A DNA stretch of 64,000 nucleotides from Psychroserpens burtonensis DSM 12212 (GTDB lineage Bacteria; Bacteroidota; Bacteroidia; Flavobacteriales; Flavobacteriaceae). Below are positions 12,747-51,544 of the stretch, one piece after another. The stretch's first letter is position 1. Every line of letters begins with the position of its first letter. A model generated the notes under the pieces. The model was not told the origin of the DNA. It saw only the letters and a program-made list of their open reading frames with translations, and made no database searches. The stretch is taken from assembly GCF_000425305.1 (NCBI RefSeq), contig NZ_AUDE01000023.1:26121-90120 (forward strand), in the 5' to 3' direction. The translations under genes and the position numbers were made by a program.

Positions 12747-12747
12747 T

Positions 12748-15581: not shown

Positions 15582-16367
15582 TCAATCTTTGTTTAAATCG
15601 TCTTGTATCAATTGATTCAATTTGTGAAGAAGCTGTATCATCTCTTTGTGAGCGGCCGCAATTCCTGTATTGTTCATTACTGAAAGTTTTAGTCCATTTC
15701 TAAATTCGTTTTTCTTTAGCAATTGGTTCAATTCAGGGATTACTGTAGCGGTATGTATTTGTGATGGGTGAATAGGTGTGGCCACTCCAGTTGCAGCTGT
15801 TTTTTGAAAGTCCAATGCATTGAGCATTTTGCCATTTTTTATGGAAACATTGTATAGATACTCCTCGTACTCCCGATACATGTGATGCTCACCATTATTT
15901 ATGTATACATACATTTTATCTAGTTCTAATAATTGATTTTTAATAGAATCATTAGTGATGTAATTGAGATTACCTGAGCTCACTAATTCTTTGTAAGTAT
16001 TGTTTGTAGGAATGAAGATTAATCTTTGAAAAACTTGGTTTATAGTCATTTCTAGTGAGATGATATCACCTGCTGTTTCCAGAGTTTTAAAATCGAGCAT
16101 GCGAGCAGCAGCTTGAGCTGTTGCTGCCCTATATTTCATGATACTGTCGTTGTTTTTAAATTCTATTGTGATATCTGTTTGCACGTTTTTTAGGTATTTT
16201 ATTTCTTGCTTGCGAGACTTTCTGTCCTCATTACTATTATTAATGGTCAGGGCGATTAAAATCCCAATAACCACAAGAATGATTTCGCCCAAGGCATAGA
16301 GTAAGTACCTACTCACTTTGTTTTCTTTAATCATATTTTGGCGTAGGTTTCTGAAGAATTTTATCAT
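15582..16367 (-). CDS. DUF6090 paralogue 1 (last of the array)
   Basis: 261 aa from the ATG at 16367, matching the MIKFF start of its relatives; an ATG two codons upstream (16373) is possible. Basic head, membrane helix at about 24-42, then a helical domain probably outside the membrane. The usual NNWNE after the helix reads NNSNE, losing a nearly invariant Trp. The family core motif is present as YKELVSSGNLNYITNDSIKN. The C-terminus (RNGLKLSVMNNTG) pairs it with the neighbour upstream and with the pseudogene at 21940-22742. Gap to the upstream gene is short (about 10 bases). Confidence 0.9.
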   Translation of the reverse strand: MIKFFRNLRQNMIKENKVSRYLLYALGEIILVVIGILIALTINNSNEDRKSRKQEIKYLKNVQTDITIEFKNNDSIMKYRAATAQAAARMLDFKTLETAGDIISLEMTINQVFQRLIFIPTNNTYKELVSSGNLNYITNDSIKNQLLELDKMYVYINNGEHHMYREYEEYLYNVSIKNGKMLNALDFQKTAATGVATPIHPSQIHTATVIPELNQLLKKNEFRNGLKLSVMNNTGIAAAHKEMIQLLHKLNQLIQDDLNKD

Positions 16368-16377
16368 TTTCAATATT

Positions 16378-17139
16378 TTATTTATCGAGCTCTTGGTTTA
16401 TCAATATAATAATTTGCTCTGTCGTATTCATCATGTTTTTGTATTCTACAATAAGATCTTCACTATTAAATTGAGCGAGAACAAAGCCATTTTTAAAAGT
16501 TCTGTTTTCTAAAAGGGTTTTAACTTCTGTTAATTCTAATTCTGGAAGTGTTTCACTTTTACTAACTTGTGCTTTTAAGTTCTCTATAGAGGTGTCTAAA
16601 TCAATAATTTCAAAAAATTTGTCGTAGAGATAGCGTTCATAATCTTCTTCCATTTCACTTTCAATAAAACGTATAATGCTGAGATTGTTTTGTAGATTTT
16701 GCAAGCTATCTTTCATTGTTTTATTAGATAGGATAGAAAGTTGTCCAGAGTTTAAGAGCTCTTGGTAGGTATTGTCATTGTTCTCAAAAGGATACCATTC
16801 CATAACTGTCAAGGAATGAAAATTAAATGCATCTACATCCAATGTTTTTTTTGCATTGAAAAAATCTAATACTAACTCAACAGACGTAATTGTATTGTTT
16901 CTTTCAGCTATAAAATTTTTGAGTGATTTCAAATTGAGTTTTAAGTCTATTTTTATGTTTTCTATATAGACCTTCTCGATAGTTCTTTGCTTTCGGTTTT
17001 CGCTCCAATTATTAATTTGCAAGGCTATTAAAATACCAAAAACCACTAAGATTATTTCGCCAAGAGCATAGAGGAGGTATTTCGTAGTTTGATTTTCCTT
17101 AATCAAGGATTTACGGGTGTTTCTAAAGAGTTTAATCAT
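16378..17139 (-). CDS. DUF6090 paralogue 2
   Basis: 253 aa, head MIKLFRNTRK, then membrane helix with VVFGILIAL (Phe instead of Ile) and NNWSENRK. The core reads YQELLNSGQLSILSNKTMKD. The C-terminal segment FKNGFVLAQFNSEDLIVEY resembles NGFVMAIYEFSVINKQ in the pseudogene at 21940-22742, defining a subgroup with paralogue 1. About 114 non-coding bases separate it from the deletion pseudogene upstream. Confidence 0.9.
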   Translation of the reverse strand: MIKLFRNTRKSLIKENQTTKYLLYALGEIILVVFGILIALQINNWSENRKQRTIEKVYIENIKIDLKLNLKSLKNFIAERNNTITSVELVLDFFNAKKTLDVDAFNFHSLTVMEWYPFENNDNTYQELLNSGQLSILSNKTMKDSLQNLQNNLSIIRFIESEMEEDYERYLYDKFFEIIDLDTSIENLKAQVSKSETLPELELTEVKTLLENRTFKNGFVLAQFNSEDLIVEYKNMMNTTEQIIILINQELDK

Positions 17140-17253
17140 ATTTGTTTTCTGAGAAAGTAAATGTCTTTATGGTTTTGATGAAAGTGCAACAGAAATCAAT
17201 TTAAAGTATAACTTTTATTACATGTTTATTGATGTCTAATTCTTATACTGTTG

Positions 17254-17545
17254 TTATTGTATCAAAGTTCTTAATTTATTTTCAATTGATGTATTCAGTT
17301 CTTCTGTTTTTTCGAATAATTGCTTGTAGAAGCTATATTTAATAGCGTTAATAAATAGACTCTCTACTAATGGTAGCTTAAATTCTTCATCCTTTTGTAG
17401 TGTTTTCATTCCAATTGTTGATCTGCAACGCAATCAAGATACCAAGAACTACAAGGATGATTTCGCCAATGGCATATTTGAAGTATTTACCTGTTTTATT
17501 CTCCATAAGTAGGTTTTGACGTATTTTTCTAAATATTGTAATCAT
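17254..17545 (-). pseudogene. DUF6090 pseudogene with large internal deletion
   Basis: Starting at the ATG at 17545 the head is intact (MITIFRKIRQNLLMENKTGK, then KYFKYAIGE, helix and QINNWNEN) but translation ends after about 54 codons. In another frame the typical C-terminal end follows at once (LQKDEEFKLPLVESLFINAI to ENKLRTLIQ-stop at 17254). The central 150 or so codons are missing and the join is out of frame. This is a remnant of a recombination or deletion inside the array. Confidence 0.85.
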
Positions 17546-17554
17546 AAGCTAGTG

Positions 17555-18343
17555 TTATTTAAGAACAACCAACGCTTTGTCTATTTCATTAGTCAACTCA
17601 TTTATCCTAGTGATCATATTTATATAAAAATCGATGGTTACTTGTCTAAAGAATATACTTTCGTTTAAAATAATTTTAAAGGCATCATCTTGTTTTGCTT
17701 CGTCAAACTTGTGTAATACAATAGCTTTTTTTTTAAATTCTGGATTATAATAATCCTTGCTGTCTGGATTAGAAAGGATCATCTCTGGTGCATTGGGATC
17801 CAATTTACAATATTTTAGAAAATAAGGTAGTTTTACATTATACGTCTCATAAGCAGGTAAATCATTTTCGATTTTCTTAATAGCTGTGCTAAAAAAATCG
17901 TAAAATCTTGAAATATCATTTCGTAAAGAATTATTAGTTAAAATACCAATGTCGTTATTTTGAAGATTTGCAAATGTAGATTCATGTAGCACAATTATTA
18001 AAGGTGTTGTGAGTGCAGCATTGTAATCTATGACTGTTGCTGGATAATCTAAGTCGCTTGTCAAAAAGTTTAATAATTTTTTTTCCTCATTGATAAACGT
18101 AGAATGATACTTAATATTAAAATTAATATCTAGTGTATCTAATGTGAGGTCTTTTTTTAGGTTTTCTAAAAGAACGATTTCTAAAGTTCTAGCTTTGCGT
18201 TCTTCTTTCCAATTATTTACTTGTAACGCAATCAAAATTCCAATAACCACAAGGATAATTTCTCCAATGGCGTAGAGTAAATATTTTGAAGTTGTATTTT
18301 CTTTAATCATGGATTTACGTATATTTCTAAAGACTTTAATCAT
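17555..18343 (-). CDS. DUF6090 paralogue 3
   Basis: 262 aa, head MIKVFRNIRKSMIKENTTSK, membrane helix, then QVNNWKEERK. The core motif is degenerate (FANLQNNDIGILTNNSLRND). A proline-rich stretch near the middle (KYCKLDPNAPEMILSNPDS) is not seen in the others. The gene starts 1 base after the MBOAT stop, so it is translated with the acyltransferase pair, and it is followed 9 bases later by the deletion pseudogene. Confidence 0.9.
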   Translation of the reverse strand: MIKVFRNIRKSMIKENTTSKYLLYAIGEIILVVIGILIALQVNNWKEERKARTLEIVLLENLKKDLTLDTLDINFNIKYHSTFINEEKKLLNFLTSDLDYPATVIDYNAALTTPLIIVLHESTFANLQNNDIGILTNNSLRNDISRFYDFFSTAIKKIENDLPAYETYNVKLPYFLKYCKLDPNAPEMILSNPDSKDYYNPEFKKKAIVLHKFDEAKQDDAFKIILNESIFFRQVTIDFYINMITRINELTNEIDKALVVLK

Positions 18344-18344
18344 C

Positions 18345-19760
18345 TTAAAATTGAAAATAAATGAACTGTTCGCTATGGCCTTGAGAAATAGAAATTAGAA
18401 AAATCATTATAGCCCAAGTTACGCCTAATATTAGTGGTGATATTTTATGAGACATTTCTTTTAACGATGATTTTCTCATTATCCAATGACAGATAAACAA
18501 CAGGCTAATAAGTACAAGAACCTTAATGATATCAAACGATTGTAGGATTTTATCACCATCTGGATTCATGAAAAACATGGAGCTAATCATGTTTTTTGCA
18601 GTTGAAAACTCCCGAGCTCTAAAAAATACCCATGTAAAGTTGACTAAGATATAAGTAAGTAGCGCAAATAGTACTCCATTAAAAGCATTAATTTTTATAT
18701 GAATGCGTTGTTTTAAAACACGCTCAGCCACTAGGTATAATCCATGTAAAGCACCCCAAATGACAAAAGTCCATGCTGCGCCATGCCACAAACCACCCAA
18801 TAACATGGTAATCATTAAAGCGACATATAATCTTGTAATGCCATGCTTATTTCCTCCTAATGGAATATATAAGTAATCCCGTAGCCATGTGGATAATGAA
18901 ATATGCCAACGTTTCCATAAATCGGAAAAACCAATAGAAGCATAAGGATATTTAAAATTGTCTGGTAAAATGATGCCTAGCATCAATGCAATACCAATAG
19001 CACAGGTAGAATAGCCTGCAAAATCAAAGAATATTTGTCCAGAAAATGCTAACGTACCTGTCCATGCATCTAAACCATGCAGGATGCTTTTTGAACCAAA
19101 AATTTTATCTGCAGTTCCCGAAAGTAATGTGTCTGCTAAAACAACTTTTTGAAAAAGGCCTATAGTCAATAGGAAGAAGCCCCAAATAAACTGTTGTGTA
19201 GTTGCTTTTTTCTCTTCGTAAAATTGGGTAATTAAATCTTGAGCACGCACAATTGGACCAGCAACTAATTGAGGAAAAAAAGTGACATACAATGCAAAGT
19301 CTAAAAACGTTCGAGCGGGTTGAATCTTTTTTTTATAGAGATCAATAGTGTAAGACATGGTTTGGAACGTGTAGAATGAAATACCCATTGGTAAAATAAT
19401 ATCCATTGGTAAGGCTTCATAATCAAGACCGATTGAACTCATTACTAAGGTAAAATTCTCCAACAGAAAATTTCCGTATTTAAAAAATGCTAAAAACCCT
19501 AAATTTACGACCATACTCAATAGCAACCATAATTTCCGTTTACCTTGACGTTCTTCGACTGCTAGTTTTTTTCCGGCTGTGTAATCAACAATGGTTGAAA
19601 TCCAGAGCAGAATGACCAACGGTGGATTCCAAAGGCCATAAAAAATATAACTTGCCAATAATAGAATGCGTTTTCTATTATTCCAACTAAAAATATTGGC
19701 ATAATACAGTACTAAAACAATAACTAAGAATACGATAAAGCTCAATGAATTGAATAACAT
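18345..19760 (-). CDS. MBOAT-family O-acyltransferase (AlgI/DltB type)
   Basis: 471-aa polytopic inner-membrane protein. Seen: LPMGISFYTFQTMSYTIDLY, FFPQLVAGPIVRA, RWHISLSTWLRDYLYIPLGG, and GGLWHGAAWTF with the invariant catalytic His326. The family moves acyl groups, usually acetyl, across the membrane to a cell-surface polymer. The SGNH-type gene 2 bases upstream is the expected extracytoplasmic partner (compare AlgI with AlgJ/AlgX, or DltB with DltD). Both are inserted within the DUF6090 array. The acceptor polymer is unknown. Confidence 0.92.
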   Translation of the reverse strand: MLFNSLSFIVFLVIVLVLYYANIFSWNNRKRILLLASYIFYGLWNPPLVILLWISTIVDYTAGKKLAVEERQGKRKLWLLLSMVVNLGFLAFFKYGNFLLENFTLVMSSIGLDYEALPMDIILPMGISFYTFQTMSYTIDLYKKKIQPARTFLDFALYVTFFPQLVAGPIVRAQDLITQFYEEKKATTQQFIWGFFLLTIGLFQKVVLADTLLSGTADKIFGSKSILHGLDAWTGTLAFSGQIFFDFAGYSTCAIGIALMLGIILPDNFKYPYASIGFSDLWKRWHISLSTWLRDYLYIPLGGNKHGITRLYVALMITMLLGGLWHGAAWTFVIWGALHGLYLVAERVLKQRIHIKINAFNGVLFALLTYILVNFTWVFFRAREFSTAKNMISSMFFMNPDGDKILQSFDIIKVLVLISLLFICHWIMRKSSLKEMSHKISPLILGVTWAIMIFLISISQGHSEQFIYFQF

Positions 19761-19762
19761 AA

Positions 19763-20800
19763 TTAGTTGGTTTTAGAATTAGTAAACGCATCATCTTTTG
19801 TTAAAATCGAGACTAAGGTTTTTGTGAAATAGATAGCATCTTCATACGAAAGGTGAGACTCTTCTGGGCATTTAAGATCTTTAAGTGTATCATAATCTTC
19901 AAAGTGATAACTTTTTACGCGTGCTTGTTTTACTAAGTCATCCCAAAACTCGGTTCTTGGTAATACTTCATGTTCTCCAACGCGTGTGGCTCCACTTGAG
20001 GGTAATCGCACTAATATGACATTTCCGTTTCTTGCTTTGAAGGTATTGAGGTCTTTTAGAAAAAAGGCCATTGTAGAAGCCTTGTCAGGTGGTGGTACTC
20101 CGTTTCCGAAGAATTCCCAAACTTTTATAATGGTATTTGCAAAAGCGGTGTCAGTTGCGGTGCGAGAGGTCATGGCCATATTCCGGTTGGTATCGACATC
20201 TCCAAAATAGTAAAATGGTGGTGCAATGGGAGCGCCCGTTCTGTTACCGATTTTTACTTGACGTAATAATGATTTCAAATCGATATCATCATCCCATTCT
20301 TCTTCATCTGCAGATACAAAAGCAAAGCTTTTTTGTAACGGAACAGATAATTCGTAATTAATACGCTGTGCATAGGTTCTGTCTTGATAATGATTAACTT
20401 TAGACTGCGACCTTTTCCATGGAAAAGCCTCTGGAAATGTTGTAGAAAAAAATAGTCCAGGTGTAACGCCTATGATTATGGAACCATTATAAGTTGTGTT
20501 ATTGACGATATCATGAAATGTAGGTAAAGGCGAAGACCCTGTGGATGCGAGTTGAATAAGCTTTTTTCCTGTGAGTTGTTCAAATGGTTTTAGTTGAATA
20601 TCAAAAAAAGCACGTGAAGATCCTAAAACGATAATATCCTCTTTTGTTGCAGTTTCTACATTTGCACGATGTTTTGCCCATAAAGCTTTTTCGTCATTTA
20701 GTGTTGGGTAATAACCTTGTAGTCTCCAGTAAATTTCCCATGAACTCAATAGCACGAGGCTTAATGCTATTGTAATGACTAAAGATTTTTTTAAATTCAT
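19763..20800 (-). CDS. SGNH-hydrolase-like membrane-anchored partner of MBOAT (DltD/AlgJ-like)
   Basis: 345 aa. An N-terminal hydrophobic segment (about 7-24) is a signal anchor. IIVLGSSRAFFD (Ser61/Ser62) is the SGNH block I nucleophile region, IIIGVTPG is a later block, and PEESHLSYEDA near the C-terminus supplies the paired acidic residue and His. It probably transfers the acyl group delivered by the adjacent MBOAT protein to a periplasmic or surface glycan. 183 bases separate it from the TerB-like gene upstream. Confidence 0.75.
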   Translation of the reverse strand: MNLKKSLVITIALSLVLLSSWEIYWRLQGYYPTLNDEKALWAKHRANVETATKEDIIVLGSSRAFFDIQLKPFEQLTGKKLIQLASTGSSPLPTFHDIVNNTTYNGSIIIGVTPGLFFSTTFPEAFPWKRSQSKVNHYQDRTYAQRINYELSVPLQKSFAFVSADEEEWDDDIDLKSLLRQVKIGNRTGAPIAPPFYYFGDVDTNRNMAMTSRTATDTAFANTIIKVWEFFGNGVPPPDKASTMAFFLKDLNTFKARNGNVILVRLPSSGATRVGEHEVLPRTEFWDDLVKQARVKSYHFEDYDTLKDLKCPEESHLSYEDAIYFTKTLVSILTKDDAFTNSKTN

Positions 20801-20983
20801 GATGGTTGGTGTTTAGTTAGTGCTTAGGAGCTTCACTTCGGTAACTGTCAAAAAGCGTCTTCGTATGCATTTGATCAAATTGTTTGGTGTCTTCATAGTG
20901 TCGAAAGAGCCATAGTTAAAAGATAAGAGCAGTTAAAAATTTTAATACCTTCAATTAGATATGTTTTTAGTGGTTTCTAATTT

Positions 20984-21319
20984 TTAGTATAAAATATTAT
21001 CAAATACTCGTTCTAAGTAGCGCTCTTTTGGTGAGAAATTTTTGTCGGAGAGAAATACTTCAAGAATTTCTTGCTTTAACTTATTGAGTTCTGTTGGTGT
21101 ATATTCATGATGATTAATAGCATCTTCTATTTTTTCAAAACAATCATCTTCCTCGTCACAACAAAACTCATTGTATAATTTGTCAAAGGTTTCTGGATCG
21201 GTTTTAGATTTAATTAAATTAATTTCTGCTTCAGATTGTTCTTGGTCTATTTTAGCACTGAGTAAAAGAATATAAATTTTCAACTCTGATTTTGACCATT
21301 TTGCTAATTTGTTTTTCAT
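20984..21319 (-). CDS. Small helical protein, possibly TerB-like, copy A
   Basis: 111 aa, all-helical, no signal peptide. Seen: WSKSELKIYILLLSAKID, NEFCCDEEDDCFEKIEDAINHHEY, and a C-terminal ERYLERVFDNILY. The shape resembles TerB-like domains, but this is tentative. It is about 77% identical by eye (85 of 111) to the gene at 49976-50311. The operator-plus-promoter at 21445-21491 points at this gene, making it the first gene of a unit that continues into the SGNH/MBOAT pair and array genes 3 to 1. Confidence 0.7.
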   Translation of the reverse strand: MKNKLAKWSKSELKIYILLLSAKIDQEQSEAEINLIKSKTDPETFDKLYNEFCCDEEDDCFEKIEDAINHHEYTPTELNKLKQEILEVFLSDKNFSPKERYLERVFDNILY

Positions 21320-21939
21320 AATTTAATTTAATGAGTTGTATTCTTTTAATGTAAATTATATTGATTTTTTTAAAAAGCCAATGCTAGGGAGAAAGGAATT
21401 CTCTTAGTCAAAAACTTCTATAAAAGTATGTTGTTTAACTTATGTCAAGTTAATCGACAGTGGGCTTATTGTCAACCACATATTCATGTGGTATTAAAAA
21501 GACTATTTGTGATGTTATGCTTTACTAATTTTGTGAGTAATTTGATTATGAAAGGTTTTATTCAAGAGGAAAGTTGAGTCTTTTGTTAATACGCGTTGCT
21601 TTTTTATAATAGCAGAAGAATCATCAAAAAAAAACATAGGATTTTCATTTGTGACTACTATTCTAATTTTTTGTCTTGTATCGAATTCTTCGTATTCTCC
21701 TTATAAAAGTTTTACAAATAATGAATATTAACTGATTTGGGCTTTATTTAAATTATTTTAAATCAAGAAGAGGCTCTTTAAATAGTCGAAATTCTTGCTT
21801 ATTTACTTTTGTAGCTAGTGTTCTTTATATGTAAAGTAATTAAAGGAAAACCAGTGCCGGTCCAAGGCCATAGATGTTTACTTGTTCTATTTGGAGTACT
21901 AGGTTTTAACGGTTATTTCTAAAGCATTCTAGGATTTAT
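21320..21939. other. Long leader/intergenic stretch upstream of the TerB-like gene
   Basis: 620 bases. It contains the regulatory palindrome and promoter at 21445-21491. On the minus strand 21515-21700 is open for 61 codons (GEYEEFDTRQ, later NENPMFFFDD, ending KISKA-stop), without a start near its beginning and preceded directly by a stop; it looks like the tail of a lost beta-rich protein, but I cannot confirm it. Nothing recognisable in 21700-21939. Confidence 0.4.
21445..21491 (-). promoter_or_regulatory. Palindromic operator joined to a Bacteroidota promoter (site 1)
   Basis: CCACAT-ATTC-ATGTGG (21476-21491) is a perfect 6-bp inverted repeat. On the minus strand TTG (21473-21475) follows directly, and 20 bases later TAACTTGA (21445-21452). 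It is about 125 bases from the ATG of the gene at 20984-21319. Palindrome centre to -7 box is 31.5 bp, the same as sites 2 and 3. Confidence 0.7.
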
Positions 21940-22742
21940 TTAGAGTTCATTATCAATTAATACAATAAGTTGTTCGCAATAAGTTTTCATTTGTTCTAAT
22001 TGCTTGTTGATAACGCTGAATTCGTATATAGCCATAACAAAGCCATTTTTCTGTTTGGTATCTTTTAACATGGCTTCAAATTGCTCTTTAATTAAATCTC
22101 TATTTTCGCCAGCTTCACCGTTACTCACGTAGTACATGTAATTTTGAACAATTGAATTCATATCCATCGTATTAAATGAGAGCTCGTACAACTACGTTTC
22201 TGGATCATACCTAAAATGTGCTTCTTCATCTTTCATGATTTTATAAAGCGATTCCATATTAAGTAAAGTGTTTTTGATGGAGTCGTTTGAAAGTAAAGCT
22301 AGGTTGCCAGAATTCATTAATTCTTGAAAAGTGTTATTAATTGGAATCCAGAGGTCTTTAAATCTTCATAAAAAGCCCTATTCACCTTTATGACTTTCAT
22401 TCCATATACAGGGCCAAATAACGAATCAAGTTTAGGACTGTACTCGTAATTTGGGTTTTCCATAAGTTTCTCCAACTGTTTGATAGACTTTTGGATATGG
22501 ACTAAATTTTTAAGTTCAGCTTTCATCTTATTTCTATCTACTGTTAAACCTTCTTTCGATTGAAGCAGGATTTTGATTTCTTGAATGTCATCTTTTTGAT
22601 TGCTATTCCAATTATTGATTTGTACAGCAATTAAAATACCAACGACTACCAGTACAATTTCGCCGATTGCTTAGATGAAATATTTGGATGTTCGATTTTC
22701 TTTAATCATATTTTGGCGGATTTTTCGAAAGAATTTTATCAT
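21940..22742 (-). pseudogene. DUF6090 pseudogene with stops and a frameshift
   Basis: From the ATG at 22742 the head reads MIKFFRKIRQNMIKENRTSK then YFI-stop-AIGEIVLVVV, so Leu of YLLYAIGE has become TAA. The frame continues to EDLKTSG near 22350, shifts, resumes as LWIPINNTFQELMNSGNLAL, meets a TAG after YDPET, and ends LYELSFNTMDM to IDNEL-stop at 21940. At least three disabling lesions in an otherwise full-length copy. The C-terminus groups with paralogues 1 and 2. Confidence 0.88.
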
Positions 22743-22745
22743 TGG

Positions 22746-24322: not shown

Positions 24323-24324
24323 GG

Positions 24325-25077: not shown

Positions 25078-25094
25078 TTGCTAGTCTAGTTTTA

Positions 25095-28393: not shown

Positions 28394-28421
28394 CTTAATG
28401 AATTGAGATTGTTACCATCAT

Positions 28422-29459: not shown

Positions 29460-29478
29460 AAATAGAATACGTTATAGT

Positions 29479-30738: not shown

Positions 30739-30771
30739 TATAAGCTATTGTGCAGTGGTTAATTTTTAGTT

Positions 30772-33330: not shown

Positions 33331-33382
33331 ATATGTTTTCCACAAAAGTGAATCTGTTTTTAAATCGTGATGTTGTTTTAGT

Positions 33383-34150: not shown

Positions 34151-34896
34151 AGGTCTTTTATATAAAAGTCAAGTTGTTGTAGAAGACGTTTTGAGCCTTC
34201 AAGTGAATACTCTAATTCTACTTGAGTTTCTGTAAATAGAATTCTCTTAAAGTTACTAATACCTTGGAAGGTGGCAGCAAGATGGCTACTGTTAATATGT
34301 TCCCAAACCAAAGAATCGATTAAGTGTCCCTGATCATGAATAGGCGTGGAACCAAAAGTATAGGTGTTGACATAAGACGTAATCTTCTCTCTATAATCGT
34401 TAGTGGTTTTTTCAACCCTATTTTTTTGAAAGAATTTTTGATTGTAGAAATTTTTGATCCTTGTCTTTAAAGAATCTGATACGTTTTCTACTAGTCCTGT
34501 TTGGATGAGACTGTAATAGGCGTTTGTATTGTAAATAATTTGTTCGCTCCAATTTGGATTAAATTCATAGCGCATAACGTGTATCAAAGTGTCTAAGGTT
34601 GCCTCAGGTTTTGCTACTTTGGTTCTTAAGGATTCATTTAATTGGTGTTGCTCTTTAATAAATGGTAATCGTTCTTTTATTAAAACAGTGTCTTGGGCAA
34701 GATCATTATATAAGGCTACAAGCGCATTTTTAATTTGTATTTCTTTTTGTTTGTGCTCTTTCCAATTATTAATCTGCAAAGCAATTAATATCCCAATCAC
34801 CACAAGTACTATTTCGCCAATGGCGTATTTGAAGTACTTTGTGTTTTTGCCTTCGCTGAGTAATTGTTTTCGAATATTTCTAAATAACTTTATCAT
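34147..34896 (-). CDS. DUF6090 paralogue 16
   Basis: 249 aa, head MIKLFRNIRKQLLSEGKNTK, KYFKYAIGE, NNWKEHKQKE. EATLDTLIHVMRYEFNPN pairs it with paralogue 14. Core YYSLIQTGLVENVSDSLKTR and KNFYNQK. 4-base ATGA overlaps with the genes on both sides make translational coupling of 15, 16 and 17 likely. Confidence 0.9.
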   Translation of the reverse strand: MIKLFRNIRKQLLSEGKNTKYFKYAIGEIVLVVIGILIALQINNWKEHKQKEIQIKNALVALYNDLAQDTVLIKERLPFIKEQHQLNESLRTKVAKPEATLDTLIHVMRYEFNPNWSEQIIYNTNAYYSLIQTGLVENVSDSLKTRIKNFYNQKFFQKNRVEKTTNDYREKITSYVNTYTFGSTPIHDQGHLIDSLVWEHINSSHLAATFQGISNFKRILFTETQVELEYSLEGSKRLLQQLDFYIKDL

Positions 34897-35615
34897 TCTG
34901 ATTCTTTTAAAATTTCATCTATTTCGTCCTGAAATTCGGTTAGACCTTTTATTAAAGCTTTAAGCATTCTGGTATACTCTTCAATTCGATTGTAAATAAA
35001 TATAACCCGATTGCGATAGGTGTGGTTTGTCAAAAAATAGTTGTGTAATTCTTTGCTACCTAAATCTTGCGTGATGGTATTTTCCATCCATTCTGCATAC
35101 CATTTATAATTATCTCTCACGTATTTTTGATGATCAATGAATTCTGCTGAAATACTATTTTCAAGCGGAAGCATTTTAGTATCCATCCACTCATATATGT
35201 CATTGAGATAAAAGGTTAACGTATCGTTTACTTGCAATTCTCTTAATTGGGAGACCCCTTTTTTGTTTAATATCATAGCTGGACCATCAAATAGTAATCT
35301 TGAAAGTCCTTTATCCAGTAAGTCAGGTGTTATCGAGTCGTTTACTACTTTTTCAAAAACAGGTTTTTTTTCCATGTAGAAGTCCACACTCCTTTGCAAA
35401 TCTCCTATATCGTTTTTAATATCATTATTAATAAGCGCATAGACGTTTATAAGTTTAATGGCGTCTTTTCGTTCTTCATTCCAATTATTAATTTGTAGCG
35501 CAATCAAAATTCCAATAACCACCAGAATAATCTCACCAATGGCGTATTTGAAGTATTTTGTAGTTTTGCCTTCGTTGAGAAGGTTTTTTCGGATATTTCT
35601 AAATAGTTTTATCAT
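34893..35615 (-). CDS. DUF6090 paralogue 17, long-form body without the beta domain
   Basis: 240 aa, head MIKLFRNIRKNLLNEGKTTK. The body lacks the ELxNSGxL core and instead resembles the long forms: RDNYKWYAEWMENTI and LHNYFLTNHTYRNRV match NYSWFSDD and YNYMLEDYGYKNKV of paralogue 10. It stops where the long forms continue into the C-terminal beta domain, so it looks like a short member of that subgroup. Twenty bases separate it from paralogue 18. Confidence 0.88.
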   Translation of the reverse strand: MIKLFRNIRKNLLNEGKTTKYFKYAIGEIILVVIGILIALQINNWNEERKDAIKLINVYALINNDIKNDIGDLQRSVDFYMEKKPVFEKVVNDSITPDLLDKGLSRLLFDGPAMILNKKGVSQLRELQVNDTLTFYLNDIYEWMDTKMLPLENSISAEFIDHQKYVRDNYKWYAEWMENTITQDLGSKELHNYFLTNHTYRNRVIFIYNRIEEYTRMLKALIKGLTEFQDEIDEILKESE

Positions 35616-35635
35616 TTGGATTAGTAGTTTGTGCT

Positions 35636-36403
35636 TCAGTTATTTTTTGTTCTTATTTCAGATTCTAAAAGTTGAAGTATTTCCGTGTTCAATTTGATGC
35701 AAGTCTTATATTTATTTGCTGAAATGTCACATAAAATGATTTGATTTTCAACTCTATTTTCAAATTCAGGTAATTTTAGTAAGTGGTTATTATTAATCTC
35801 GAAACCGGATTCTGGCAACGTAATATTTAAACTGGAGTTGTAATTGCGTGCTTGGTCAGCATTAAGAAAACTACCGTTTTTTATTATAAAATCAATTGTA
35901 TCGACATTGTTTTTTTGTGTAGAATTTTCGCTCTCTTTCAAATCAATTAATTCGGAAAGCCAAGATGATAAAAGATTACGCAAAACATTATTTTTTATTA
36001 AACCAAGGTTTCCAGAATTTATTAAATCATTAAGAAAACCGTTTTTAGCAACATAAGTTGTTGCTGAAACAGCGTCATTTAAGTAGGTATCCAAAACAAA
36101 CGCTTCCGTATATCTTTTACCAGTGTGGTTGAGTATTTGTACACAAGATTTAATGTTAAGCGTATTAAAACTATCTGTACGAATTAAAGTTAACAGATTA
36201 TAGTTAAAATCCTCTTTTAAGTTTTTTAAGGCTTCTAGTTCCAATTTATTTTGTTTAGAATTTTCATTCCAATTATTAATGGATAAGGCAATCAAAATCC
36301 CAATGACCACAAGCACAATCTCGCCTATTGCGTATTTGAAATACTTGGTAGTTTTTCCCTCTGCGAGTAATTGTTTTCTAACATTTTTAAATAACTTTAT
36401 CAT
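35636..36403 (-). CDS. DUF6090 paralogue 18
   Basis: 255 aa, head MIKLFKNVRKQLLAEGKTTK, KYFKYAIGE, helix, INNWNENSKQ. Core LNDLINSGNLGLIKNNVLRN and SWLSELIDL, a good family consensus. Its upstream gap of 107 bases is the widest between adjacent intact array genes and holds three hairpins and a vestigial gene start. Confidence 0.9.
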   Translation of the reverse strand: MIKLFKNVRKQLLAEGKTTKYFKYAIGEIVLVVIGILIALSINNWNENSKQNKLELEALKNLKEDFNYNLLTLIRTDSFNTLNIKSCVQILNHTGKRYTEAFVLDTYLNDAVSATTYVAKNGFLNDLINSGNLGLIKNNVLRNLLSSWLSELIDLKESENSTQKNNVDTIDFIIKNGSFLNADQARNYNSSLNITLPESGFEINNNHLLKLPEFENRVENQIILCDISANKYKTCIKLNTEILQLLESEIRTKNN

Positions 36404-36429
36404 AGTTTAAAATTTTTTACTAGTTAAGT

Positions 36430-36489
36430 CCGCAAGCGGCTATCTCCACCAAATGTCCACTGGACATTTAATTTTGCAAAAGCAAAATT
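36430..36489. repeat. Three consecutive palindromes in an array gap
   Basis: CCGC-AA-GCGG (36430-36439), AAATGTCC-ACT-GGACATTT (36451-36469) and AATTTTGC-AAAA-GCAAAATT (36470-36489) follow each other within 60 bases. The two larger ones have perfect 8-bp stems. They look like a small palindromic intergenic element. It sits at the point where a DUF6090 head is cut off. Confidence 0.65.
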
Positions 36490-36518
36490 GTGTTTCGATA
36501 ACTAAAGAGTTTAATCAT
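36468..36518 (-). pseudogene. Vestigial DUF6090 gene start
   Basis: Overlapping the stop of paralogue 19, ATGATTAAACTCTTTAG encodes MIKLF, the standard array start, and then diverges to SYRNTILLLQN-stop inside the hairpin element. Five family codons remain; the rest of this copy is gone. Confidence 0.6.
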
Positions 36519-37290
36519 GCTGTAATTCGGTTTTGATGAACTCCTTTAATTTTTTAGTCTCGATAATAACGTGCTTCATTTTTCCCATATTTTGCTTTTG
36601 ACCTCCAACTACTAAATCCATTCCTATTTGGTAATCGTTATATTCTTTTGAGTTTTTATTAGTATAAAACGGATAATTATTTAAGTTGAAATTGAGGGAG
36701 TCTCTATTATAATCCATCATCAGTTTCCCAAAGCCATCTTCAAATTTTATAAATCCATCTTTTACGTCCTTAGAATTTTGGACATTATAAAACGATTCGC
36801 GTTCCCCACGTTTATAGTACGCTGTTATGGCTTCCACTAAAGTGTCTGAACCCAATGAATATAATTTACCCGTATTGCTTAATTCAGAATAGGTATTATC
36901 ATTTAAATTTAAAAGCGAACCTCCTGCAGAAAATGGCGCTGATGTTATGTAGTCTAAATGTGATTCGTTCAATCCCAAATAAGTCAGTTTTATAATGGAG
37001 TCACTTACCTCTACAGCTTCTTCCAGTGATGGATAGCTAGAATCATTTAAAGAATCATAAACGATGCGACCTAATCGCTTCTCATTAGCATCAAGGTCTT
37101 TTAGCATTTTATTTAAAAACACATTATTGCTTTTCTTTAATTGTCGCTGGCTATTCCAATCATTGATGGACAATGCCAAAAGAATACCAATAACGACAAG
37201 GACAATCTCACCAATGGCGTATTTGAAATATTTGGTGGTTTTGCCTTCTGAGAGCAGGTTTTTACGGATGTTTCGGAAGAGTTTAATCAT
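36511..37290 (-). CDS. DUF6090 paralogue 19
   Basis: 259 aa, head MIKLFRNIRKNLLSEGKTTK, helix with GILLALSINDWNSQRQ (Asp replaces Asn). Core YSELSNTGKLYSLGSDTLVE and AYYKRGE, preceded by a Gly/Ser-rich SAPFSAGGSLLNLNDN. It ends TELQHD; the stop overlaps the vestigial start. Three bases separate it from paralogue 20. Confidence 0.9.
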   Translation of the reverse strand: MIKLFRNIRKNLLSEGKTTKYFKYAIGEIVLVVIGILLALSINDWNSQRQLKKSNNVFLNKMLKDLDANEKRLGRIVYDSLNDSSYPSLEEAVEVSDSIIKLTYLGLNESHLDYITSAPFSAGGSLLNLNDNTYSELSNTGKLYSLGSDTLVEAITAYYKRGERESFYNVQNSKDVKDGFIKFEDGFGKLMMDYNRDSLNFNLNNYPFYTNKNSKEYNDYQIGMDLVVGGQKQNMGKMKHVIIETKKLKEFIKTELQHD

Positions 37291-37293
37291 TTC

Positions 37294-38106
37294 TTAGTTA
37301 TTTTTATGGTCTTCTACTTCTGATGTAATGATATCTATAATGCTTTCAGTTTTTATTTTTACTCCGTCTGATTGGTCATTTGTATAGGCTGTATAGCTGA
37401 TAAATTGCATGAGATAATCTTCAAAATCAGGATTATTTAGTAAGGGTTTGTAATCTGACTGTAATACTGTATTCTTCAAAGTATTATAATTGCCAAGACT
37501 TCCCATCGTGAATTTAGCTCTGAGTTTTTTATCTTCTAACATAATCATCTGCATCCTGCCAATCTGATAATTCTTAATCAAAAAAGGTATTAACCAATTT
37601 TCGGTTAAATTTAAAATGATTTGCTCTTCTTCCTTAAGTTCACTTAAAGAACTAGAATATGAGGAAATTTCATTTCTCAATGTGATGTCATCTAATAGAT
37701 AAAGCTTTCCTGAGTTAATTAACTCATTGGTAACGCTTAGTTCTGGGTCAAAAGTGGGTCTTATTGATATTCTAAAAAGATGTGCATCTAGGCTATCAGC
37801 CACGATTTGGTTATTAGTTTCTGTTCTATAACCTAAAAGACTATAGCACGAATTGAGCATTTCATTTCTAATATCAATTTTTTGGTTTATCTGTTCGAGA
37901 TTACTCGTATACTCTTTTAATAATTGCGCTAATATTTGCTTTTCTTGCTCTTTGTTTTGAGTTGTAATGTTCCAATTATTAATTTGTAGTGCAATTAAAA
38001 TTCCAATAACCACTAGGATAATTTCGCCTATTGCATAAAGAAGATATTTAGAAGTTCTGTTATCTTTAATCATATTTTGTCTAATTCTCCGGAAGAATTT
38101 AATCAT
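37294..38106 (-). CDS. DUF6090 paralogue 20
   Basis: 270 aa, head MIKFFRRIRQNMIKDNRTSK, KYLLYAIGE, NNWNITTQNK. Core TNELINSGKLYLLDDITLRN. The pattern PTFDPELSVTNELI and the C-terminal NPDFEDYLMQFISYTAYTND correspond to PTFDPITNDLISGG and NPKLADILSSVVSSSLFAKT in paralogue 22. Together with gene 8 they form a subgroup. It overlaps paralogue 21 by 8 bases. Confidence 0.9.
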   Translation of the reverse strand: MIKFFRRIRQNMIKDNRTSKYLLYAIGEIILVVIGILIALQINNWNITTQNKEQEKQILAQLLKEYTSNLEQINQKIDIRNEMLNSCYSLLGYRTETNNQIVADSLDAHLFRISIRPTFDPELSVTNELINSGKLYLLDDITLRNEISSYSSSLSELKEEEQIILNLTENWLIPFLIKNYQIGRMQMIMLEDKKLRAKFTMGSLGNYNTLKNTVLQSDYKPLLNNPDFEDYLMQFISYTAYTNDQSDGVKIKTESIIDIITSEVEDHKNN

Positions 38107-39097
38107 TTTCAGGAATTTTTTTAAAAATCGGTTTTTGAGCTTCCATTAAAAAATAAAACTCAGATGTATCGGTAGTGAATTCTAGGTCCGCTCCGTTTAA
38201 ATTTAATGTTAGTGAATCCCTTATTCTTAATTTATCAGAAAAGTTATATTTAGACGCATATCCTAAAAATTCTTTATTTTGAAAATAGATACGTATCGTA
38301 TCTACCGTATTGGTGTAGCTCCCTATAAATGGTTCAGCCATTTTTGGCGTAACATCTTGGTACATAGTTTTTAAAACAGCGCTACCATCGTTTGGAAAAC
38401 CAAGTGCTACCATTTGATTGTAGAGGGTAATTGCATCATATTTTTTATCCACTAGTTCTGGTGCTAAGTCATCCAGTGTCCAGCTAAATCGACCCAACCT
38501 GTTTTTGTAATCTTTACTAGTGAGTAAAAATTCGAAATAAGCATCAAAATCTTTACGATATAGGGATTCAGAAAACCCTGAAATAATTTCGAAGGACTGA
38601 TTTTGTAGCACTCTTAAATTATCATACGAATTTTCAAACCTTGAATGATTGTATAGGTTCTTTAACTCTATAACTAACGATTTATAATTATCTGGTAAAT
38701 TATCGGCATTTTGTATGAGTTTATTATAAGCTTCATTCTGCGTTACTATGTTTGGGCCAGATAGCATAATCCGACGTAAACTTCTACTGTTTTGATAATC
38801 CTCTAGAGTTAAGGTGTCAGCAAATACCCGTCTTACATCTCGTAATTTTTCAAAATAATACGTGCCTTTTTCATCAAACTCTATACTATTATTCAGTATT
38901 TCTTTTTGCACTTCTAGCAACTGGTTATAAGCTTCTTTTTCATTGGCTTTGTTAGTGTTCCAATTATTAATTTGTAGTGCAATCAAAATCCCAATAACCA
39001 CGAGGAAAATCTCACCTATGGCGTATTTAAAATACTTGATTTTATTTCCTGATTCCATAAGGTCTTTTCTTATATGTCTGAATAATTTTAGCATCAC
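38099..39097 (-). CDS. DUF6090 paralogue 21, long form
   Basis: 332 aa, starting MMLKLFRHIRKDLMESGNKI, a divergent head, with KYFKYAIGE and NNWNTNKANE. Middle DAYFEFLLTSKDYKNRLGRF is the long-form signature. C-terminal domain: FIGSYTNTVDTIRIYFQNKE, LTLNLNGADLEFTTD, FYFLMEAQKPIFKK. The terminal END-stop codons again contain the next gene's start. Confidence 0.9.
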   Translation of the reverse strand: MMLKLFRHIRKDLMESGNKIKYFKYAIGEIFLVVIGILIALQINNWNTNKANEKEAYNQLLEVQKEILNNSIEFDEKGTYYFEKLRDVRRVFADTLTLEDYQNSRSLRRIMLSGPNIVTQNEAYNKLIQNADNLPDNYKSLVIELKNLYNHSRFENSYDNLRVLQNQSFEIISGFSESLYRKDFDAYFEFLLTSKDYKNRLGRFSWTLDDLAPELVDKKYDAITLYNQMVALGFPNDGSAVLKTMYQDVTPKMAEPFIGSYTNTVDTIRIYFQNKEFLGYASKYNFSDKLRIRDSLTLNLNGADLEFTTDTSEFYFLMEAQKPIFKKIPEND

Positions 39098-39888
39098 TTC
39101 GCTTTTAGTTCAGAATCTATTAATGCTAATATGACTGTAATATTTTTCCGTAAAGATTCACTTTGGGTTTTTGCAAAAAGCGAACTGGAAACCACGCTAG
39201 ACAATATATCTGCTAATTTGGGATTGGCAAGGAATGCCTCCAAATCGACCGGTTCTTTGGAACTCCTAAAAATATTAGGTGTTGTACTTGTTTTATCCAT
39301 CAACAAAGTCTGGACCACGTCAAGGCGGTTCCATTTGGCGGCGTTTATGTTTCTTACTGGATAATTTTGATATAAAAACGGTATATAATTATTTCTTAAT
39401 ATAAAAATCCAAGCAGTTTCTTCTTCTGTGACTTGCACCAAATCACTCGGCCATTTTGAGAGTTTGCTGCGAAGTTCTAGGTTTCGAATAAGATACAGTC
39501 TTCCTCCACTTATAAGGTCGTTGGTAATTGGGTCAAAGGTTGGTGCTACCGTTGTTCTTGCCAAATAAACAACAACCGAATCAGGGATTATTATGGATGG
39601 GTCGTCGTGATACGTTAAGAGCATAGTGCCTGCATTGACCATGGCAGCTCGCATAGAAATCTTTTCATCTAATTGTGCAAGATTTGCACTAAATTCTTCA
39701 CGAATCTGTCGCAACGTTTGCAGTTCTTCTTTATGTTGCACAGTAGCATCTTTCCAATTATTTAAAGACAACGCAATTAAAATCCCAATAACCACGAGGA
39801 TGATTTCTCCTATGGCATAGAGCACATACTTTTTTGTTTTTCCTTCGGAAATGTAACCTTGCCTAAAATGTCTAAAAAATTTAATCAT
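39094..39888 (-). CDS. DUF6090 paralogue 22
   Basis: 264 aa from the ATG at 39888 (MIKFFRHFRQGYISEGKTKK); an ATG at 39918 would add ten atypical residues. KYVLYAIGE, NNWKDATVQH. Core TNDLISGGRLYLIRNLELRS. Sister to paralogue 20 by the PTFDPIT segment before the core. Its 3' end overlaps paralogue 21 by 4 bases. Confidence 0.88.
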   Translation of the reverse strand: MIKFFRHFRQGYISEGKTKKYVLYAIGEIILVVIGILIALSLNNWKDATVQHKEELQTLRQIREEFSANLAQLDEKISMRAAMVNAGTMLLTYHDDPSIIIPDSVVVYLARTTVAPTFDPITNDLISGGRLYLIRNLELRSKLSKWPSDLVQVTEEETAWIFILRNNYIPFLYQNYPVRNINAAKWNRLDVVQTLLMDKTSTTPNIFRSSKEPVDLEAFLANPKLADILSSVVSSSLFAKTQSESLRKNITVILALIDSELKAK

Positions 39889-39947
39889 AGTTATGTTTCG
39901 TATTTCGATTCTGCTCACTGTAACTTACAGTGGGAATCTTAATTATG

Positions 39948-40667
39948 TTAATGAGATTGCAGTAGTCTAAGTAACTCCTCTGATTTTTCAGTGGCTTGCG
40001 TCTGTCTTTCATCACAATAGTATTGCAAATCGTTTTTCATATTAATTAAACCTAAAAGTTGCTTCTTACTATAACTGCCTAATTCAATATCTTTAATTTT
40101 AATTAATGGGTCTTGAGACGTGTATGATTCAAATGAAAATCCGCAGGCTACGAAAAAGTCAACTATTTTTGAATTCCATAATTCATCTAAAAAGTATTCC
40201 GCTTTTTTCATTCTAAGATAGGCTTGTTTTAGATCTCTTAAATCCTTAATCAATGCTTTCTTTTCAATTAAAACGTTTGAATTAGATTCAATAATGGCGT
40301 CTAAAACAGGGGAATCAATGGTATAACTGTAATAATTAAATGTACCACTCATTTCTTCGTTAGTAATTAAAATGGTGTCCTCAGCTAATTTTGCTTTCAC
40401 ATCTTTTGAGGCATTCTTGTATGCCTTATTTTTACTATTGATTATGGATAAAAGTTGAATATTTGCACTTAATTCTTTTTCTAAAGACTTTAATAATTCT
40501 ACTTCATTAGTCTTGGCTTTTTGATGTTCATTCCAATTGTTTATGGAAAGCGCAATCAAAATACCAATGACCACGAGGATGATTTCGCCAATGGCGTATT
40601 TGAAGTACTTTGATGTTTTACCTGTTGCCATAAGGTTATATCTTATTTTACGGAAGAATTTTATCAT
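39948..40667 (-). CDS. DUF6090 paralogue 23
   Basis: 239 aa, the shortest intact copy. Head MIKFFRKIRYNLMATGKTSK, KYFKYAIGE, NNWNEHQKAK. Core is weak (LDAIIESNSNVLIEKKALIK), and the C-terminal half has two cysteines (FFVACGFSF, LQYYCDERQ) unusual for the family. Gaps of about 60 and 44 bases separate it from its neighbours. Confidence 0.88.
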   Translation of the reverse strand: MIKFFRKIRYNLMATGKTSKYFKYAIGEIILVVIGILIALSINNWNEHQKAKTNEVELLKSLEKELSANIQLLSIINSKNKAYKNASKDVKAKLAEDTILITNEEMSGTFNYYSYTIDSPVLDAIIESNSNVLIEKKALIKDLRDLKQAYLRMKKAEYFLDELWNSKIVDFFVACGFSFESYTSQDPLIKIKDIELGSYSKKQLLGLINMKNDLQYYCDERQTQATEKSEELLRLLQSH

Positions 40668-40711
40668 TGGTCGATAGTTTGTTAGATGTTAAAAAAGCAC
40701 TCAATCCTTTA

Positions 40712-41479
40712 TCAGCCTTTTTTATTGTTTTCTAATACAGCTTTAAGTGCTTTGGTTTCTTTTGCTATGCTTTTATAGATCCGCCCTTGTTTTTCATATA
40801 ATCTTAAATAATAGGCAAGCCTATTATTACGTAATCTCATTTGTGGTGCATCTATATTGTATTCCCAGTTTTTAACTGTGCTGTGCTCTTTTTTACTATA
40901 GTCATAGTCATAGTCATATAAAATATCAATTTCTTTTTTAAAATCTAAACTCACTTTATCAACTGCCTCTAGACTTTTAAACTCTGCAACAGCAAGTCCA
41001 TCCGTATAATTTTTATATTTTAATATGGCATTTCTCTTTTGAGTTGAGAATAATTTAAGATTACCTGTGGTAACTAAATCTTGAATAGAGTATGTAGATG
41101 TGCTAAAGAAACCTAAGAAAGTACGGGTACTGTCTGCCTTAGTCTTTAGAATAGTCATGTCAAGGCTGTCCTTGTTGTAGTACACAACATAGTCCTCAAT
41201 AGTTGCGATACGAATTTTAATAAGACTATCCCTTTCCTTCAGTTGCAATAAGTCCGTCTTTAATTCTGAAATAATATTGAGCTCATAGGATTTATATAAA
41301 TTATTTGATTTTCTGAGTTCGTTTTGGTTATTCACTTGCAATGCCAGTAAAATACCTATCATTACTAATGCAATTTCGCCTACTGCATAAAGCAAATATT
41401 TACTGAACTTACCTGCCCGTCTGGCAGGCGGGTTTTCAGTCAATAAGCGTTGTCTAATTTTTCGGAAGAATTTTATCAT
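40712..41479 (-). CDS. DUF6090 paralogue 24 (first of the array) with an in-frame palindromic insertion
   Basis: 255 aa. Head MIKFFRKIRQRLLTEN is followed by an extra PPARRAG and then KFSKYLLYAVGE; paralogue 14 has TENKFS without it. The extra seven codons are at 41411-41431. Helix ends LALQVNNQNELRK (Gln replaces Trp). Core IQDLVTTGNLKLFSTQKRNA. An unusual DYDYDYSKKEHS tract follows. This is the array gene nearest the M20 pseudogene, 75 bases downstream of its original stop. Confidence 0.9.
   Translation of the reverse strand: MIKFFRKIRQRLLTENPPARRAGKFSKYLLYAVGEIALVMIGILLALQVNNQNELRKSNNLYKSYELNIISELKTDLLQLKERDSLIKIRIATIEDYVVYYNKDSLDMTILKTKADSTRTFLGFFSTSTYSIQDLVTTGNLKLFSTQKRNAILKYKNYTDGLAVAEFKSLEAVDKVSLDFKKEIDILYDYDYDYSKKEHSTVKNWEYNIDAPQMRLRNNRLAYYLRLYEKQGRIYKSIAKETKALKAVLENNKKG
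41411..41431. repeat. 21-bp GC-rich palindromic insertion in a DUF6090 gene (copy 2)
   Basis: CCTGCC (41412-41417) and GGCAGG (41423-41428) form the stem; 16 of 21 bases are G or C. It adds PPARRAG between the basic head and the helix, four residues away from the equivalent insertion point in paralogue 9. Confidence 0.75.
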
Positions 41480-41554
41480 AATTTATGCCTGACTTTTTAA
41501 TTTATTACCTCTCCTTTCTATTTATATCAGATAAAAAATTGGACGTTATATGTT

Positions 41555-42901: not shown

Positions 42902-42939
42902 TTTTTTAATGTATTATACATTATTTATTTTTAAGGATT

Positions 42940-44247: not shown

Positions 44248-44433
44248 TTTTGATTGGTTTTGGTGGTTGGTTAAAATTTATAATAATCAATCTGTTTACT
44301 GTTACTTTGTAATAAGGAAATTAAAAAAGGACCGAAGCCAAAAAAATGTTTGATTATAATATTGAAAACAAGAATTTTTAGTTTCGATTTTTTAGACGTA
44401 AGGTTTCATATCATAACTAGTATTATATTTTCT

Positions 44434-45186: not shown

Positions 45187-45229
45187 GGTATTTTATGTAA
45201 AGTGGTTTATAAATATCGTTTTATTTAGT

Positions 45230-51543: not shown

Positions 51544-51544
51544 T

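Follow-up and report, generated by a model that had tools for sequence, protein, structure and literature searches.

A 24-copy DUF6090 array in Psychroserpens burtonensis read as a possible collected, head-swapping membrane repertoire, and integron-like cassettes carrying its relatives

The 64,000-nucleotide stretch analyzed here (the window) covers positions 26,121 to 90,120 of the forward strand of contig NZ_AUDE01000023.1 from Psychroserpens burtonensis DSM 12212 (assembly GCF_000425305.1; family Flavobacteriaceae), a 90-kb contig of a 3.98-Mb draft genome; the habitat of the genus is likely marine. On its minus strand, between positions 15582 and 41479, lie 24 intact open reading frames (ORFs) of the DUF6090 type, called with a simple script, each with a basic head, a membrane helix, and a divergent body. 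Since DUF6090 genes ride singly in integron-like cassette arrays, elsewhere in this genome and in the genus, and since heads have apparently been exchanged, we read the array as a collected, head-swapped membrane repertoire in which each body, predicted to be periplasmic, likely neutralizes a different incoming toxin or phage factor. We hold this reading tentatively and give it nearly an even chance.

A profile search of the P. burtonensis genome placed 22 of the 24 copies above the PF19578 cut-off of 23.5 bits; the other two (27359-28393 and 31541-32593) begin with the same head as the rest. An initial annotation of the sequence had described 24 full-length copies of a single family in a row on one strand, with short gaps and overlaps, and this is borne out: 23 of the 27 gaps between successive array genes measure -8 to +44 bases. 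Four copies (332 to 350 aa) have a longer C-terminus. Other details needed revision. The row is not made of DUF6090 genes only, four other genes being embedded in it, which encode an MBOAT acyltransferase, an unassigned 345-aa protein, a 111-aa protein, and a DUF418 protein. Where two pseudogenes and one vestigial head had been annotated, we found one disrupted copy (~21.9 to 22.7 kb) and one vestigial head (~17.5 kb), so that 24 of 26 traces of the family in the array are intact. The ELxNSG core, described as general, is not: even a loose (S/T)G-x-hydrophobic pattern after residue 60 occurs in just 14 of the 24 copies. Outside the window, the same genome holds 16 more DUF6090 ORFs.

Most DUF6090 regions of 11 Psychroserpens genomes were compared (left out, for example, was one place each in G296 and G299), giving 147 DUF6090 ORFs, 141 of them with bodies of at least 150 aa. 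Among BLASTP matches covering at least 70%, no body had a partner of 50% identity or more in its own genome (0/141; highest, 42.4%), and for 43 of the 141 there was no qualifying match at all. Between genomes, 45 of 141 bodies had a match of at least 60% and 10 of 141 had one above 90%, the top ones including conserved single-locus members. Tandem duplication was rejected because none of the 11 genomes contains recent duplicates. The annotation had taken the expansion in one locus as a sign of selection for diversity. The diverse, non-redundant repertoire stands, while local expansion by tandem duplication does not (no bodies in the same genome exceed 43% identity); close relatives occur in records titled as other genera, and the family is carried in integron-like cassettes. 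A comparison of copy number in related genomes had also been proposed. It gave 40 DUF6090 matches in P. burtonensis and 2, 25, 2, 3, 16, 12, 6, 10, 4, and 21 in the other genomes, and the congeners do not carry the same orthologues, so the proposed diversification stands.

Horizontal movement of the family is suggested by the copy starting at 33383, whose relatives made up 7985 of 7999 scored proteins (best, 90%). Relatives of 86 and 76% identity are titled Psychroserpens sp. and Winogradskyella sp., respectively, and matches of 61 to 82% come from records whose titles give another genus or stop at the family, one of 61% being in Aquiflexum. Compared with the fetched congeneric loci, the same copy reached at most 41% over the full body. 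Many-copy rows also occur in Winogradskyella ouciana (19 matching ORFs in 20 kb) and in Aquiflexum sp. TKW24L of the class Cytophagia (17 matching ORFs in 21 kb), and DUF6090 was present in 36 of 60 Flavobacteriaceae genomes, with up to 43 matches. Eighty loci were selected for their similarity to copy 33383, which biases the neighbor counts drawn from them, and some of these loci overlap each other or loci fetched before (L133 with L169; L119, L151, and L173 with G300, G303, and G304). A phage- or plasmid-borne family was rejected, as no relative appeared when one copy was searched against phage and plasmid records or when one copy and one alignment were searched against viral contigs.

Orthologous bodies are under purifying selection, with dN/dS of 0.02 to 0.34 in 33 of 38 pairs (the other five were not estimable). 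Because of these low values, the diversity of the bodies looks ancient and assembled, not quickly made in place, and rapid diversification of the antigenic type is not favored.

The cassettes were recognized by their sites. In one congener (G300), repeats of ~125 bases stand between many of the DUF6090 genes. An alignment of 40 sites folds into a stem in which 7 of the 16 pairs show two-sided changes; the sites were picked by patterns at both ends, so their outer bases are conserved by construction. Canonical attC sites end in RYYYAAC/GTTRRRY. These ends are only partly kept here, and the sites have the imperfect inverted repeats and compensatory stem changes of attC-type sites. When the variable bases beyond the AAC/GTT ends are compared on the two sides of the gene between them, 5 or 6 of 6 agree in 79% of 125 neighboring pairs. 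The corresponding figures are 7% within a site (143 cases), 9% for the next site along (125 cases), and 7% for random pairs. This is the trace that would be expected from cassette-wise exchange at a fixed core point, as in integrons. For DUF6090 cassettes alone, 13 of 17 had at least 5 of 6 end matches, but random pairing gave 73%, the control being uninformative within this group because most of its members have the same ends. Eleven of the 17 DUF6090 cassettes tested carry the same six bases at both ends (L032, L033, L035, L042, L050, L052, L015, and L016), and these look like a single cassette lineage whose content is exchangeable.

A superintegron-like array was seen in the complete genome of congener G297, where 267 sites were found over ~255 kb (G297:C1, ~1838 to 2092 kb; loci L077-L081, L032, L033, L087-L090, and L034-L036), or ~6% of the chromosome; one site listing used for this genome covered 100 of 135 places. 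The 253 cassettes have a median length of 648 bases, and 149 hold one ORF, 38 hold more, and 66 hold no ORF of at least 70 aa. Cassette ORFs are on the plus strand in 234 cases and on the minus strand in 4, an arrangement of co-oriented, mostly single-ORF cassettes beside a tyrosine recombinase, comparable to that of integrons. Of the 187 ORF-bearing cassettes, 140 were scanned for cargo, and some match toxin-antitoxin and antiphage-type families: among the first 25 families listed, ParE matches four cassettes and DUF6090 four, and PADLOC models such as AriA, PtuA, SduA, and AbiGi match one cassette each. In P. burtonensis itself we found at least 67 sites (150 of 6337 candidates scored), many on short contigs; of its 16 DUF6090 ORFs beyond the window, 13 lie no more than 300 bases from a site. 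In the fetched regions of the 11 genomes together, again leaving the window aside, the count is 43 of 122 DUF6090 ORFs, and 19 of the 43 have sites on both sides. No site was found in 94 of 168 fetched loci (1.75 Mb). Across Flavobacteriaceae, at least 56 of 60 genomes have one or more sites and at least 40 of 60 have 10 or more, these counts being lower bounds with at most 58 candidates scored per genome.

In all six loci checked, a tyrosine recombinase gene is followed by sites after its 3' end, two of the six having one upstream site too; in a seventh (G305), the contig ends just past the recombinase. The P. burtonensis protein (376 aa) resembles XerA-type recombinases and aligns to IntI4 (2a3v) over chain positions 13 to 199 and 248 to 313, not between them. 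The recombinases of G297, G300, G302, G303, and G305 match the P. burtonensis protein over almost their full length, with 34 to 60% identity. None of 23 congeneric genomes passes the IntI cut-off (TIGR02249), and the additional (patch III) domain of IntI was not found in the site-adjacent recombinase. Since no genome passes the IntI model, the system is integron-like in its working but lacks one defining feature. P. burtonensis has two site-associated recombinase copies, 96% identical, on two contigs (L009:2231-3361 and L086:4486-5616).

Evidence for head swapping comes from synonymous codon differences, compared between head and body in 38 inter-genome pairs with bodies at least 60% identical. 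Head classes were set by pattern, and one control pair (L029/L054) contains a missed mobile-type head with a GTG start. Synonymous divergence was higher in the head than in the body in 20 of 23 pairs with mobile-type heads (8 at P < 0.01) and in 11 of 13 pairs of a non-overlapping mobile-type set (7 at P < 0.01). For other heads, mostly from single conserved loci, this was so in 2 of 15 pairs, none at P < 0.01. Codons of the membrane helix match at 0.53 compared with 0.44 predicted from base context, and those of the bodies match at 0.454 compared with 0.452. A GC-rich palindrome of ~21 bases sits in frame in the heads of two window copies, the only places in the genome with this pattern. In congener G305 (L041, L044, and L045), six heads carry it at the same site, three of them letter-for-letter identical, while 13 of the 15 pairs among their bodies have no match and 2 match at 21%. 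Heads are apparently exchanged between bodies by recombination. With 99 matches to its pattern in congener G324, the palindrome probably belongs to a dispersed repeat that heads retain.

The initial annotation of a basic head followed by a near-identical membrane helix held up well. The head carries a net charge of +5 to +8 in all 24 copies, and head and helix together have a mean pairwise identity of 80% over 26 residues, compared with 14% for the aligned bodies. DUF6090 proteins are predicted to reside in the inner membrane, and the charge of the head leads to a predicted periplasmic location of the body. In the model of copy 33383 (pLDDT 92.8), a short basic helix is followed by a single helix (residues 18 to 96) that continues into a bundle closed by residues 211 to 253; helix 18-96 would span the membrane. 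Each of two DUF6090 models has one predicted membrane helix. Judged by spacing, the invariant residues of this helix, including a Glu and small residues, fall mostly on one face. The Glu raised the idea of a type IV pilin-like head. Prepilin cleavage requires a Gly before the helix; this Gly is absent, one of four scanned copies had sub-cut-off pilin-type matches (12.9 to 13.5 bits), and the idea was dropped. A fold search returned generic helical bundles, with similarity at a level common to bundles. The extra C-terminal part of copy 28422-29459 was modeled as eight beta strands, and for this beta domain of the 345-aa type the search gave an alignment with the Rv0907 C-terminal domain (4whi; probability 1.00, E value 0.076), a likeness that is no more than suggestive.

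In the chromosome, the array occupies an insertion hotspot downstream of nqrF (Table 1). The array is missing next to nqrF in all 10 congeners examined; the border genes, both found in 7 of the 10, are 85 bases to 7.4 kb apart there compared with 43 kb in the window, and in G301 (L095), ~180 bases separate the 131-aa and 287-aa genes. Congener G320 (L096) has a small version, in which MBOAT and its partner are joined by the 111-aa gene and by a stretch resembling DUF6090 (42% to copy 15582). The nqrF site holds seven DUF6090 ORFs in Formosa maritima (L156) and four in a Flavobacteriaceae metagenome-assembled genome (MAG; L149), so that the use of this hotspot by DUF6090 arrays extends beyond a single genus. 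Six congeners hold 3 to 11 DUF6090 ORFs at a second hotspot, next to a pyridine-nucleotide-disulphide oxidoreductase gene. The Rnf complex is related to Nqr. According to the available text of PMC12718326, a pore-former of the Bacteroidales type VI secretion system requires the Rnf complex.

An immunity-type repertoire fits best because the bodies are non-redundant, the anchor is constant and apparently swappable, copies are banked in hotspots, and cassette company is of the toxin-antitoxin and antiphage types; by analogy with the rAID arrays of Bacteroidales, the array may have an immunity-type function. The basic head and helix would anchor all copies alike, perhaps by binding a shared partner or one another. 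The head could double as a homology arm by which new bodies enter the array or change heads. Each body, predicted to project into the periplasm, would neutralize a distinct toxin or phage factor. Cassette-captured copies may have moved into site-free, operon-like arrays, and joint expression of the array copies could provide standing, non-redundant protection, like that of orphan immunity genes in rAID arrays. Several observations weigh against this reading. It has no known target, toxin partner, or phenotype to draw on, and no pairing of a DUF6090 cassette with a toxin was seen. When whole bodies were tested, selection was purifying with no positive selection detected, a weaker signal than an arms race predicts. 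The window array gave no significant attC-like site in a covariance search with filters off (two matches, E values 0.24 to 0.25), so its cassette origin is putative, and among the 122 DUF6090 ORFs beyond the window, 79 lack a site at a distance of up to 300 bases. Three of the 23 mobile-type pairs do not show greater divergence in the head, both pairs involving a window copy are not significant, and some relatives in conserved loci adjoin a metallopeptidase gene rather than defense genes. Finally, the predicted fold, a helical bundle of a common kind, also matches sensor domains, and the conserved helix face would suit a receptor-transducer system equally well.

These last two points bear on the main rival, a receptor repertoire in which the bodies would sense different ligands and the head and helix would signal to one shared transducer, in the membrane or the cytoplasm, perhaps the array-linked 111-aa protein. 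We consider it unlikely, if worth serious attention. The likeness to four-helix-bundle periplasmic sensor domains (such as Vc1313-LBD and NarQ) lies in a helical bundle rising from a membrane helix; in contrast to those sensors, DUF6090 proteins have no cytoplasmic signalling part, and the similarity is of the degree that bundles share. It is rather improbable that the genes are selfish or nearly neutral, a common cassette cargo whose arrays expand through head-to-head recombination while the cell gains little. Such accumulation would account for the range of 2 to 40 matches among the genomes of the genus, the absence of DUF6090 from 24 of the 60 Flavobacteriaceae genomes, and the disrupted copy and vestigial head, but not for the low dN/dS of the bodies where estimable or for the intactness of 24 of 26 copy traces; neutral duplication would also yield near-duplicate bodies, and none are kept. 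Least probable of all, and very much so, is that the proteins are envelope accessory factors for O-acylation of surface polymers by MBOAT and its partner, with a body for each surface glycan or enzyme. MBOAT and the 345-aa partner do recur next to DUF6090 genes or not far from them in Winogradskyella pelagia (L133), a Pukyongia MAG (L112), and congener G320 (L096), and DUF418 and acyltransferase genes lie within the same 43-kb stretch, but MBOAT has just seven matches in all the fetched loci searched, four of them (including that of the window) within 300 bp of a DUF6090 gene.

The 111-aa protein is linked to such arrays, with 11 of its 16 matches lying within 300 bp of a DUF6090 gene. In 11 sequences, 28 of 111 columns are invariant, and the proteins end in NNILY or DNILY. 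Besides its two copies in the window, the gene was noted in L022, L030, L047, L111, L133, L160, L161, L164, and L183, repeatedly next to DUF6090. No Pfam match over the cut-off was seen and no significant PDB match was obtained; a possible resemblance to TerB was set aside, as neither Pfam nor PDB supports it. Single-locus DUF6090 relatives lie 34 to 151 bases from a conserved metallopeptidase gene in seven congeners (L023, L027, L048, L060, L063, L065, and L066). This metallopeptidase is DUF5117/DUF4953 in L065, the other six are 80 to 99% identical, and locus L031 of G297 does not have this arrangement; the neighborhood is perhaps the ancestral setting. A shorter relative (~212 to 225 aa) has a conserved neighborhood in six congeners (L055, L057, L064, L067, L046, and L028), within ~500 bases of a GroEL/Cpn60-type gene in five of the six and 3.9 kb from it in L028. 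In G305 (L041:8927-12490), the direct neighbor of a DUF6090 gene encodes an FG-GAP protein of 1187 aa that carries a type IX sorting tail.

Table 1. Features of the window around the DUF6090 array (positions within the window)
Feature	Position	Strand	Basis
nqrF, conserved left border of insertion hotspot	12739..14061	+	Pfam Fer2, FAD, NAD domains; 85-93% identity in 21 other congeneric genomes
Conserved border gene, 150 aa	14188..14640	-	Next to nqrF in 4/10 congeners
Conserved border gene, 131 aa	14855..15250	-	Next to nqrF in 7/10 congeners
Lineage-specific 43-kb stretch containing array	15251..58446	.	Border spacing in congeners
DUF6090 copy, 263 aa	15582..16373	-	PF19578 49.8 bits
DUF6090 copy, 253 aa	16378..17139	-	
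Vestigial DUF6090 head, then stops	17380..17555 (ends approximate)	-	Conserved head at ~17476
DUF6090 copy, 262 aa	17555..18343	-	
MBOAT acyltransferase	18345..19760	-	PF03062 6e-32
345-aa protein adjoining MBOAT gene	19763..20800	-	No Pfam match
111-aa array-linked protein	20984..21319	-	Neighborhood counts and alignment
Disrupted DUF6090 copy (stops, frame breaks)	21940..22746 (ends approximate)	-	Head match; tail ORF 21940-22191
DUF6090 copy, 254 aa	22746..23510	-	
DUF6090 copy, 270 aa	23510..24322	-	
DUF6090 copy, 250 aa	24325..25077	-	
DUF6090 copy, 253 aa	25095..25856	-	
DUF6090 copy, 244 aa	25849..26583	-	
DUF6090 copy, 259 aa, GC-rich palindromic insert in head	26583..27362	-	
GC-rich palindrome within head of copy 26583	27281..27303	.	
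DUF6090-type copy, 344 aa, longer C-terminus	27359..28393	-	17.0 bits, under cut-off
DUF6090 copy, 345 aa; C-terminal residues 261-342 predicted as beta domain	28422..29459	-	36.1 bits; model pLDDT 84.3
DUF418 protein	29479..30738	-	PF04235 1.4e-43
DUF6090 copy, 258 aa; shares 66% body identity with a congener's cassette copy	30772..31548	-	
DUF6090-type copy, 350 aa	31541..32593	-	21.3 bits, under cut-off
DUF6090 copy, 251 aa	32590..33345	-	
DUF6090 copy, 255 aa (copy 33383, structure modeled)	33383..34150	-	Proteins up to 90% identical elsewhere
DUF6090 copy, 249 aa	34147..34896	-	
DUF6090 copy, 240 aa	34893..35615	-	
DUF6090 copy, 255 aa	35636..36403	-	
DUF6090 copy, 259 aa	36511..37290	-	
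DUF6090 copy, 270 aa	37294..38106	-	
DUF6090 copy, 332 aa, longer C-terminus	38099..39097	-	36.2 bits
DUF6090 copy, 274 aa	39094..39918	-	
DUF6090 copy, 239 aa	39948..40667	-	
DUF6090 copy, 255 aa, second GC-rich palindrome (41412-41428) in head	40712..41479	-	
Second 111-aa gene, 77% identical to 20984-21319	49976..50311	-	
Conserved right border gene, 287 aa	58447..59310	+	In 10/10 congeners examined

With the collected, head-swapped repertoire as the preferred reading, the abundant DUF6090 family, to which its Pfam entry (PF19578) assigns no function, gains a biology of horizontal assembly and head swapping in place of tandem duplication. A search of the literature, with most subscription journals outside its reach, found no paper naming DUF6090, and as far as it shows, the head swapping and cassette carriage of the family are new. 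With the same reach, and in the text available of each source, it returned no account of this system among work on integrons of Flavobacteria or Bacteroidota. As far as the available texts go, the IntegronFinder 2.0 survey lists one complete Bacteroidetes integron, in Salinibacter ruber (PMC9024848), a review counts Bacteroidota among integron-bearing phyla (PMC8618304), and a study of attC sites does not mention Flavobacteria or Bacteroidetes (PMC8352920). A very large integron-like system in Flavobacteriaceae is indicated. It is possible, if on the doubtful side, that Flavobacteriaceae have a second kind of integron, with a Xer-type recombinase in place of IntI, near-universal and superintegron-sized, and that its signature cargo, DUF6090, is a modular repertoire whose constant membrane head serves as a handle for swapping and whose ancient variable bodies are collected, shuffled, and stored in site-free operons as standing immunity. 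Sites, recombinase, and model together offer a direct route to the cargo, by which the bank that marine Bacteroidota hold against competitors and phages may become listable.

Among known systems, integrons and sedentary chromosomal integrons, so far as described in the available text of PMC11023631, PMC9668308, and PMC9024848, share with the present arrays hairpin-forming attC-like sites with AAC/GTT ends, mostly single-ORF and co-oriented cassettes numbering in the hundreds, and an adjacent tyrosine recombinase. They differ in their integrase: the recombinase found here has no IntI-specific segment, and the count of congeneric genomes passing the IntI cut-off is zero of 23. The rAID arrays of Bacteroidales, which in the available text of PMC12247911 combine a recombinase, co-oriented short genes, intergenic motifs, and orphan immunity cargo, are the closest description found for the cassette arrays. 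The likeness, which concerns the cassette arrays and not the window array, consists of a tyrosine recombinase, co-oriented short genes, and intergenic motifs. In contrast to rAID arrays, the arrays described here occur in Flavobacteriaceae, reach 267 sites in one congener, have sites with a cassette-end signature, and carry defense-type and toxin-antitoxin-type genes together with DUF6090.

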